This document shows positions 1,192 to 28,922 of a DNA stretch of 58,057 nt, piece by piece; positions within the stretch are counted from its first letter, which is position 1; every line of letters starts with the position of its first letter. Under the pieces are notes generated by a model that saw nothing but the letters and a program-made list of their open reading frames with translations, did not search any database and was not told the DNA's origin. Both the position numbers and the translations under genes were made by a program. Origin of the DNA: a virus. The stretch is from positions 1-58,057 of the IMG/VR virus record IMGVR_UViG_3300044841_000028; one strand, given 5' to 3'.

Positions 1192-6908
<5,717 letters not shown>

Positions 6909-7486: not shown

Positions 7487-8494
7487 TTATGCGGTGGTGG
7501 CGATGTTCGACGACGACGACGTACCGGTCAGCGCGGAATCCGAGGTGGCCTTCACGCGGAACTTGTACGCAGTGGCCGTCGTCAACGACGTCACACCGAT
7601 CGTGACGGTGGTACCGACGATCGTGGTGGTGCCTTGCGTGGCAGTGGTCCACGACGAGTACGGCGACACGGACTTCTCCACCACGTAGGTGAACTCGTCG
7701 GGTGCCGGGTCGGTCGGCAGGATCGGCGTCGTGAACGCCACCGTTGCACTGGTGGCACCCGTCTGGGTGGCGACGGGAGCCGAACCCGGGAACGACGGTG
7801 TGCCGGCCTGATTGCGCCAGCCTTCGCCCTCACGGACGATGTACACCGGGGTATCGGCGTACGGGCACGGCAGCGCCCCGTACGTCAACTCCAGGTCGTC
7901 GGGGTCCTTCTTGTTCAGCTGCGTCTTGCCGACCTTCTTGCGCGCTACGCGGGGGAACACGTAGGCGAAGTGGAAGGTGCCGTCCTCGGCGAGGGCGACG
8001 ATCTGGCGTTCGATTAGGTTGGCGTTCATCGGCTTCGCGAGGCTGTACCCCGATGCACCCGCATCCGGTACGGAGATGAGTGGCATGTCGAAGCGCAGCA
8101 GGTCGACGACGGGATTGGATTCCCGGCACGTCCACATCACTTCGTCGTCTTCGTCGGTGATGTCCCACCGCTGCGACCTGCGGGCCTGGGCGACCTTCAC
8201 GCCCTCAACTGACACGTTGGGGGTGATGGACACTCCGTCGTCCTTCAGGGCGCCGACGTCGTAGAACTGGCCGCCCGGGAAGTCGGGGTCCAAAAGGTCG
8301 TCGCGGTAGAACCCGTCAGTGGCGTACGGGGTGAACAGTCCGTTGGCGTTCAGGCCAACGGCAGCGTCGCGGAGGTTCGTCAGGACGCCGTGGTAGTCGC
8401 GGGCTAAAACATTGGTGATGATGCCCTTGCGGATGCCGAGCGGGTTGAAGCCATACGCTGCTTCCCACTCAACACCGGTACTTGGCAGGGTCAT
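7487..8494 (-). CDS. Major tail protein with C-terminal fibronectin III-like domain
   Basis: This 335-aa tail-tube subunit has the expected position between the tail terminator and the chaperones. Residues 1 to about 230 form the tube domain. Residues about 232-335 (ATSATVAFTTPILP, FTYVVEKS, TAYKFRVKATSD) read as a fibronectin type III/Ig-like domain that would project from the tube surface, as in several siphovirus tail-tube proteins. The ATG is preceded by GAAAGGAAC. Confidence 0.9.
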   Translation of the reverse strand: MTLPSTGVEWEAAYGFNPLGIRKGIITNVLARDYHGVLTNLRDAAVGLNANGLFTPYATDGFYRDDLLDPDFPGGQFYDVGALKDDGVSITPNVSVEGVKVAQARRSQRWDITDEDDEVMWTCRESNPVVDLLRFDMPLISVPDAGASGYSLAKPMNANLIERQIVALAEDGTFHFAYVFPRVARKKVGKTQLNKKDPDDLELTYGALPCPYADTPVYIVREGEGWRNQAGTPSFPGSAPVATQTGATSATVAFTTPILPTDPAPDEFTYVVEKSVSPYSSWTTATQGTTTIVGTTVTIGVTSLTTATAYKFRVKATSDSALTGTSSSSNIATTA

Positions 8495-27381: not shown

Positions 27382-27614
27382 ATCGACTCCTCGTCATGTC
27401 CGCGCCCCATGCAGACGCCGCAATGCCGTCCGTTGCCGCCGACCTCTTCGCGGGCATCGCTGCCGCAGCAGTGGCATCTCTCGCCTTCGCTCGCATGGAC
27501 GCGGGGCTCCAGGACGCCCAGCATCAGGTCGGTGGTGATGGGTTCGCCTGTTGCCGTGCGACGCTTAATCTCTGCCTGCTTGGCGAGTGCCTCGTCTGAG
27601 TACCAGTCGCTCAT
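27378..27614 (-). CDS. Hypothetical zinc-ribbon protein, 78 aa
   Basis: ATG 27614 overlaps the previous stop (ATGA). The C-terminal half has CHCCGSDAREEVGG, then HCGVCMGRGHD, a zinc ribbon. The N-terminal half is helical (EALAKQAEIKRRTATGE). Function unknown. Confidence 0.6.
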   Translation of the reverse strand: MSDWYSDEALAKQAEIKRRTATGEPITTDLMLGVLEPRVHASEGERCHCCGSDAREEVGGNGRHCGVCMGRGHDEESM

Positions 27615-27934
27615 GCCGTCACTCCCCTCTCCGCGCACGCGGTCTGGTGGTTACCTCGTTGGTCCGGTAGGTCAAGGGTTGTCGTCGAAGAGTTGCGGTA
27701 GGTGGAACGTCCGTCTTGCACGAAGTGCATGACGGGTTGGGTTAACAGGTATGGGTATTCATTGTTGAACCAACGGGGGTGCAAGGTGTCTTGCACCGAC
27801 GGGGGTACAAGGTTGAGGCTCCGATGTTGCACAAAAAAGGGTGCAAGGTTGTCCCGCGATGTTGCACCTACGTAGGTGCAAGAAACACCTTCCGATGTTG
27901 CACCACCGGGGGTGCAAGGTTGAGACGCTGTCAT
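27611..27934 (-). CDS. Coupled ORF overlying the palindrome array, 107 aa
   Basis: ATG 27934 overlaps the stop of the Myb-like HTH gene and the TGA overlaps the next ATG, so its borders look like those of a real operon gene. Most of its first half, however, is made of the repeated palindromes, whose 35-36 bp spacing shifts frame. The repeated units therefore read differently (TPGGATS, TYVGATS, APFFVQH, VPPSVQD). This means DNA or RNA structure, not protein, is conserved. It may be a ribosome relay or a small protein restricted to the second half. Confidence 0.35.
   Translation of the reverse strand: MTASQPCTPGGATSEGVSCTYVGATSRDNLAPFFVQHRSLNLVPPSVQDTLHPRWFNNEYPYLLTQPVMHFVQDGRSTYRNSSTTTLDLPDQRGNHQTACAERGVTA
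27764..27917. repeat. Array of five 20-bp palindromes, TTGCAC-N8-GTGCAA
   Basis: Left arms start at 27765 (TTGAAC), 27791, 27827, 27862 and 27898 (all TTGCAC). Right arms start 14 bp later (GTGCAA, once GTACAA). Centre spacing is 26, 36, 35 and 36 bp. The copy at 27862-27881 is a perfect 20-bp palindrome. Flanks are also partly shared (GATG before, GGTTG after). A shorter relative, TTGCAC-GAA-GTGCAT, lies at 27716-27730. Regular spacing with a fixed N8 points to binding sites of a dimeric protein, possibly the origin or an operator array. Confidence 0.85.
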
Positions 27935-28509
27935 AGCGCCCTCCACTTGCGGGGATCGCGACGCAATGCCGTGCGAATCTTGTCGACTGCGTTAGGTGAC
28001 CGACCGGTCATCTCCGCAACTTGTGCAGCAGTCAGGTCGTTACGAGCAGCCAGCTCTAGCTCCGGGCCGGTCCAGCGAGGGGCATCCCCACGCCGCCCTG
28101 GAGGGCCATATTTCAATCTCTTTCGTGCCTTTTTGACGCCATAAAGTGTTCTACCAAGCATGTTGGCCACTTCTAGCGCCGACAAGTCTTCCCGGCTCGC
28201 CACTTCTAGTTCGTGGGACGTCCACTCCTGCCAGCGATTACGTGCCGTGTCGATGGTTTCGTTGTTGAGTTTGCCCATACGCTCATCGTCATTACGCCAC
28301 TGCTTCCGCAGCCGTTCACGTCGCTCTACGGGGGAGAGTTGTGTACGCCCCTTTAGCGGTTCGCGGGGACGCAGATAGTGGTCAGTAGCTATGTCATCGA
28401 GGATTCTCTGCCCAAGCTTGAGCGATTGCTGCACGCCTGCGTTGTCCAATATCTCAGCCACCGCGACCACTAACTCTTCGCGGGAACGGCACATTTCTAA
28501 TCCAGTCAC
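27931..28509 (-). CDS. DNA-binding protein with two Myb/HTH-like repeats
   Basis: This 192-aa protein contains two similar HTH units in its C-terminal half: WTSHELEVASREDLSALEVA with LGRTLYGVKKARKRL, and WTGPELELAARNDLTAAQVA with TGRSPNAVDKIRTAL. A tandem two-finger reader followed at once by the palindrome array makes it the best candidate for binding that array. N-terminal residues 1-90 are helical and may dimerise. The link to the array is inference. Confidence 0.75.
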   Translation of the reverse strand: MTGLEMCRSREELVVAVAEILDNAGVQQSLKLGQRILDDIATDHYLRPREPLKGRTQLSPVERRERLRKQWRNDDERMGKLNNETIDTARNRWQEWTSHELEVASREDLSALEVANMLGRTLYGVKKARKRLKYGPPGRRGDAPRWTGPELELAARNDLTAAQVAEMTGRSPNAVDKIRTALRRDPRKWRAL

Positions 28510-28922
28510 GACGCCTCCCCCAACTCGATCGGAGCGGAGTGGTAAGCCGCTTCACCATCGGCGAATTTGCGCCCACCCACACACACCACATACGCGCACC
28601 GACGCGGCACCGTCACCCCGCCACGGACGTACTCACGAATCAAAAGCCGACCATCCTTCTTCGCGGCCTCAATGGCTTTCGTGATCCTTCGACGGTTCCC
28701 AGGCCAGCCGAACAGTTCCGACATTTGAGCCGCCGACGTCTCCCACACCCGCTTCCCCGACTGCGGTGTAGTGGCGCATGACAGTAGGTAGGCCATCACG
28801 ATGAGCCCGTCCGAGCCGAGCGCCTTGTCGTGGCCGCCTGCCCTGATGAGTTCGTTGGACAGCAGTGTGAAGCCCTGCTTGACCGGGTCTCCAACGAGGA
28901 GGATGGGGTTGCGGCGTCCCAC
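28506..28922 (-). CDS. Winged-helix DNA-binding protein (replication-initiator-like)
   Basis: The start is taken at GTG 28922, just after the leader ORF stop (TGACGTG); TTG 28937 is the alternative. The protein opens NPILLVGDPVKQGFTLLSNEL and has a winged-helix core (GLIVMAYLLSC, TSAAQMSELFGW, RRRITKAIEAAKKDGRLL). Such helix-turn-helix proteins are common in the middle of phage early regions and some resemble replication initiators. No helicase or primase domain is present. Confidence 0.7.
   Translation of the reverse strand: MGRRNPILLVGDPVKQGFTLLSNELIRAGGHDKALGSDGLIVMAYLLSCATTPQSGKRVWETSAAQMSELFGWPGNRRRITKAIEAAKKDGRLLIREYVRGGVTVPRRCAYVVCVGGRKFADGEAAYHSAPIELGEAS

Follow-up and report, generated by a model that had tools for sequence, protein, structure and literature searches.

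The virus record IMGVR_UViG_3300044841_000028 of IMG/VR, analysed here over its whole stretch of 58,057 nucleotides (the window), contains five TTGCAC-N8-GTGCAA palindromes, hereafter called iterons, which span positions 27765-27917 with start-to-start distances of 26, 36, 35 and 36 bp. They are found downstream of a gene encoding a small winged-helix protein, and the comparison with related phages indicates that the array is probably a lytic replication origin bound by this protein. An earlier note on this DNA had left the choice between an iteron origin, a partition site and an operator array. The iteron origin is now clearly favoured because the array is obligately linked to the winged-helix gene, its sites are helically phased, an AT-rich spacer lies adjacent to it and no ParA or ParB was found in this integrase-bearing genome.

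The five copies and their spacings were borne out as the earlier note gave them, and so were the one perfect 20-mer palindrome (iteron 2, Table 1) and the tandem helix-turn-helix (HTH) genes upstream of the array. Its description of fixed arms around a fixed 8-bp centre is right for the length of the centre, which is constant, and not for the arms, which are perfect in three iterons and carry one mismatch each in the other two. The shorter-centre copy reported outside the array is located at 27716-27729, inside a 25-bp palindrome. No further iteron with zero or one mismatch occurs elsewhere in the 58,057-base record. The array is far beyond chance, as one 6-bp arm is present in three perfect copies in the window versus no recurrence, with an 8-bp centre and within at most 200 bp, in 100 random genomes generated by an order-1 Markov model with the dinucleotide composition of the record.

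Linkage of the array to the winged-helix gene

Megablast of the region against phages gave no match and a distant blastn search was therefore needed. With the array region alone this search retrieved 52 records of Mycobacterium phages, the best match having E 2e-23, and alignment-based searches added loci from IMG/VR and from Mycobacterium genomes. Excluding near-copies, 12 distinct loci including the window were retained (L numbers below are our own designations). The array is present 3' of the winged-helix gene in all 12, with 5-11 palindromes each. In the loci other than the window the first iteron is placed between about 60 bp before and about 50 bp after the winged-helix stop codon; only in L006, L131 and L138 do the initial iterons overlap the end of the gene, the array following it elsewhere. 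Moreover, a reciprocal scan of 2.9 million IMG/VR viral contigs for two adjacent iterons, made with no protein reference, returned eight contigs. In seven of them the winged-helix gene immediately precedes the array, and the remaining one has only a chance pair. As all 12 loci carry both elements and seven of the eight contigs do likewise, the array travels with the winged-helix gene.

The earlier view that the array matches none of the known stoperators or start-associated sequences of other mycobacteriophages has to be corrected in so far as cluster G phages have the array too. Far from being absent in related phages, the DNA module is carried by all 52 phage records mentioned above. In phages GoldenAsh and Sejanus the same type of palindrome array is located directly after the winged-helix gene. 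The cluster G phages Angel and GoldenAsh have the same initiator family (gp46) as the window and, in the stretch that carries the gp47 annotation, the same array and terminal palindrome; their layout comprises six iterons, whose centres measure 7 or 8 bp, and lacks a Myb-like gene in between, and in this the window differs. The window contains every part of the cluster G module, namely a winged-helix relative, a TGCAC-N7/8-GTGCA array and a CCGTC-TGCAC/GTGCA-GACGG palindrome. The array is not annotated as such in the records of GoldenAsh and Angel.

Relatives of the winged-helix protein were found by tblastn (at least 80% covered) in 52 mycobacteriophage records, mostly of cluster G, with approximately 59% identity. 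No relative of the protein or of the array was found in plasmids. Cluster J phages were rejected as carriers of the module, their winged-helix relative being distant and the array absent; in phage Optimus (L139) this relative, at 2989-3465, has 32% identity, is close to an integrase gene and has no array beside it. The number of iterons is eight in L143, and in L135 (Mycolicibacterium palauense, ~4440-4890) a tandem duplication of ~208 bp has doubled five iterons. L011 (IMGVR_UViG_3300045922_000709, 8236-8367) contains four copies of TGCACTTATTTAAGTGCA at 38-bp spacing with no winged-helix gene in the stretch, and is a different regular palindrome array.

Table 1. Features of the window in and around the palindrome array
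Feature	Position	Strand	Remarks
Winged-helix protein, 138 aa, proposed initiator	28506..28922	-	relative of GoldenAsh gp46 and Sejanus gp85
Two-repeat Myb-like HTH gene, between initiator and array	27931..28509	-	phrog_14857
Iteron 1, closest to initiator gene	27898..27917	.	TTGCACCACCGGGGGTGCAA on + strand
Iteron 2, perfect palindrome	27862..27881	.	TTGCACCTACGTAGGTGCAA
Iteron 3	27827..27846	.	TTGCACAAAAAAGGGTGCAA; aligned with the T-run/asymmetric copy of relatives
Iteron 4	27791..27810	.	one arm mismatch (GTACAA)
Iteron 5	27765..27784	.	one arm mismatch (TTGAAC)
AT-rich spacer, candidate strand-opening element	27736..27764	.	59% AT
Terminal palindrome, 25 bp	27711..27735	.	CCGTCTTGCACGAAGTGCATGACGG, 3-bp centre; conserved almost letter for letter
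Conserved tail, reaching the start of the next gene	27611..27710	-	CTACCGCAAC, AACCACC-GACCGC-GCGCG; from alignment
ATGA-coupled open frame through the whole array, 107 aa	27611..27934	-	product not conserved

Site geometry and the proposed initiator

Across the loci each site reads TGCAC-N7/8-GTGCA, with an invariant TGCAC/GTGCA core. The 56 centre-to-centre spacings are distributed in three classes. The largest has 42 members of 34-36.5 bp, while 10 spacings measure 23.5-26 bp and 4 measure 45.5-46.5 bp. The averages of the classes (25.15, 35.46 and 46.25 bp) are separated by steps of 10.3 and 10.8 bp, equal to one turn of B-DNA, and the phase coherence of the spacings is maximal at 10.5-10.75 bp.

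The palindromes might also be read as an RNA element, a series of tandem hairpins in the operon transcript that serves processing, attenuation or RNA-primed replication. Many copies could fold hairpins of 6-8 bp, the array is probably transcribed because a coupled open frame crosses it, and two compensatory changes are seen in the terminal palindrome. Nevertheless the spacing steps are those of a DNA turn, Rfam gave no match, and the iteron arms and their surroundings lack covariation, so that an RNA element is very unlikely. Among 66 different copies the letters flanking the core are no more complementary than in shuffles, except at the innermost position of the 8-bp centres, and this favours a protein dimer on duplex DNA over RNA hairpins. 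The iterons were accordingly no longer considered as hairpins, given the missing covariation and the negative Rfam search. Where the earlier note had left selection on DNA or RNA undecided, the pattern speaks for duplex-DNA sites in the case of the iterons.

The winged-helix protein is assigned to phrog_14897, a family of unknown function. Its relatives GoldenAsh gp46 and Sejanus gp85 are annotated as 'RepA-like replication initiator', a label of the kind used by a few annotators, and the initiator call is thus already present in some GenBank records. Searches of Pfam and of the sequences of solved structures gave no confident family; the match to Rep3_N is under the curated cut-off (E 0.21, 12.4 bits versus 22.4) and Phage_rep_O, the family of lambda O, was not matched. 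AlphaFold2 predicts a winged-helix fold, with a mean pLDDT of 82.8 in the best model. Against solved structures the top Foldseek matches are the primosome protein DnaB of Geobacillus, in its N-terminal region, and RctB, a chromosome 2 initiator, in its domain 1. Among viral models a 'RepA-like replication initiator' of a Gordonia phage and a replisome organizer were matched, among others. The fold matches, though weak, are headed by replication initiation proteins.

In addition, base 6 of the half-site varies with the third residue of an NRxR motif in what is probably the recognition helix. Of the 22 half-sites in the window and L131, where this residue is arginine, 20 have C; G is present in 74 of 126 in the ten loci with glutamate or aspartate, and A or T in 9 of 16 in L143, which has glutamine.

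Conserved elements around the array

The AT-rich spacer varies in length from 29 to 71 bp. It has the same position in every measurable locus, where, taken over 30 nt, it belongs to the top 0.1-3.4% of local AT content. For the phage studied here the most AT-rich 30 nt of the spacer rank within the top 0.14% of the 58-kb record. The spacers of the relatives usually hold two copies of GGACAACC or of a locus-specific variant, and the variants change jointly in both copies (two GGACAACA in L135, two GGGAATACCC in L138 and two AAGAAAACCCT in L143), as if one protein reads both; the repeats of the window itself are degenerate. GGACAACC was considered as a DnaA box and fits the mycobacterial box in its first six bases only.

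Beyond the spacer, the terminal palindrome has 25-26 bp in all loci and is nearly invariant (CCGTCATGCAC-N3/4-GTGCAAGACGG); the two compensatory changes are those of relatives L129 and L143. The distance from this palindrome to the AACC of the conserved tail is 80-82 bp among the loci, which shifts the reading frame. The terminal-palindrome pattern was also observed at 14276-14298 of L147 (IMGVR_UViG_2900261899_000001), a contig of 105 kb whose examined stretch lacks a relative of the winged-helix gene, and this copy may be due to chance.

As the earlier note described, a coupled open reading frame lies over the array, its ATG at 27934 overlapping the upstream stop codon. In the loci with ATGA or GTGA coupling the frame starts at the upstream stop, and in 10 of these 11 it is open through the array. 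Equivalent frames are annotated as gp47 in Angel and gp86 in Sejanus. The repeats could then be a chance array or the protein repeat of this frame, as the frame covers the array and Angel gp47 is annotated on the equivalent stretch. This is hardly credible, since the conserved DNA anchors take all values modulo 3 relative to the frame between loci, the peptides do not align, and palindromes and spacing are kept across loci. A protein-coding role of the frame was rejected on the same frame switching and unalignable peptides, and from this comparison the 107-aa product is probably not a functional protein. When the bases outside the iterons and the palindrome were shuffled, the frame was open in 5-27% of trials per locus. 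Its openness may be under selection, for instance because transcription might terminate where a gap is left untranslated, while the peptide seems to be unselected.

Only in the window is a Myb-like gene interposed between the winged-helix gene and the array. Relatives of this gene are found in cluster F1 phages, and one of these, Cerasum, has the relative and lacks the array. The Myb-like HTH protein is thus unsupported as the binder of the array, since both Cerasum and contig L005 carry relatives and no array, and the gene is best regarded, on these comparisons, as an insertion outside the conserved module.

Proposed origin function and relation to known replicons

The genome encodes an integrase, an anti-repressor, a single-strand annealing protein, a DNA methyltransferase, HNH and other endonucleases, and structural genes. 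In agreement with the earlier remark that replication enzymes are missing, no family match was obtained in the record for DnaB helicase, DNA polymerase A or a DnaC/IstB-type loader, nor for a lambda P-type loader. ParA and ParB, the partition families searched for, were likewise unmatched. If the HTH proteins bound the array as a partition or centromere-like site, it would resemble some plasmid partition systems, in which regularly arranged palindromes accompany a small DNA-binding protein. With ParA and ParB unmatched and an integrase present, owing to which an extrachromosomal prophage is not expected, a site of this type is extremely improbable.

At a replication origin, dimers of the winged-helix protein (28506-28922) would bind each TGCAC-N7/8-GTGCA iteron and, because the spacing is helically regular, five or six dimers could stack or wrap the DNA into a single complex. 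The resulting strain would open the AT-rich spacer (27736-27764), bordered by the 25-bp palindrome (27711-27735), and the host DnaB helicase and replisome would then be recruited, as none of the phage genes was recognised as coding for a helicase, a loader or a polymerase. We infer that the iterons are bound, the DNA opened and the helicase loaded in this manner, and that this takes place during lytic growth.

The same protein could instead be an autoregulator, or an early repressor or activator, acting on the palindromes as an operator array with no role in replication. Dimeric palindromes beside the gene of a DNA-binding protein are typical of operators, and helical phasing also suits cooperative regulators. 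However, the array is located downstream of the gene and within the operon rather than at a promoter upstream of it, it is followed by the AT-rich spacer and the conserved palindrome, and the relatives carry the initiator annotation. An operator array is therefore unlikely.

Some results weigh against the assignment as an origin. The 'RepA-like' annotation is itself a prediction, four of the five AlphaFold2 models are poor (pLDDT 41-60) and the Foldseek matches to solved structures reach only E 0.1 or worse. The covariation of the NRxR residue may represent a single event, because the two proteins with arginine may form one clade. Moreover, the GC skew, named as a check in the earlier note, makes no turn at the array and was uninformative.

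The lambda origin has a palindrome flanking it. At ori-lambda, O dimers bind four 18-19-bp inverted-repeat iterons beside an AT-rich stretch of 38-40 bp (PMC5043065, PMC3349717, PMC3985674). The order of initiator gene, inverted-repeat iterons and AT-rich region is the same in the window, and both would use a phage initiator encoded in the early operon together with the host replisome (PMC5043065, PMC3349717, PMC3985674). Unlike in lambda, the initiator is of ~138 aa and not of the O family, the array follows the gene whereas that of lambda is inside it, there are 5-6 iterons at ~35 bp, and no lambda P-type loader was found. By analogy the module would work like the ori-lambda system, although it is not a member of the lambda-type origins because its protein is outside the O family and its array is not inside the gene.

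Iteron plasmids (Rep_3/RepA, such as P1, RK2 and pSC101) are similar in that a winged-helix-type initiator is combined with repeats in phase with the helix and with an AT-rich element (PMC5043065). The repeats of the Rep_3 plasmids are direct, whereas those of the window are inverted, the helical phasing itself being common to both. In the extrachromosomal prophages of cluster A a RepA of 320-350 aa is encoded next to parABS and no repeats were found (Wetzel et al. 2020, PMC7157519). Here too a mycobacteriophage initiator is called RepA-like, although in the module the protein has ~138 aa, ParA and ParB were not found and the repeats are the hallmark. A separate class of phage origin is conceivable though doubtful, in which a single-domain winged-helix protein of ~138 aa opens the DNA on phased palindromes, the host helicase is used without a phage loader, the 25-bp palindrome is the loading or priming site and translation by ribosomes continues across the origin because of the unconserved but nearly always open frame.

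In the literature searched, which did not extend to Sampson et al. (2009) on the phages BPs, Angel and Halo, we found no account of the array, of its phasing or of the terminal palindrome. The lytic replication origins of mycobacteriophages are largely unmapped, and PMC7157519, the single paper on this subject in the literature searched, covers the prophage origins of cluster A. For cluster G, which includes the therapeutically used phage BPs (PMC10465359), and for prophages of several Mycobacterium genomes the module provides a precise and portable prediction (the gene and ~330 bp), and an open question on these phages thereby becomes easy to test. Angel gp47 and its relatives would then probably be misannotated genes lying on an origin. 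Mycobacterial genetics could gain new replicons from the module, which could also help to explain how the host replisome is taken over by phages that have no helicase or polymerase.
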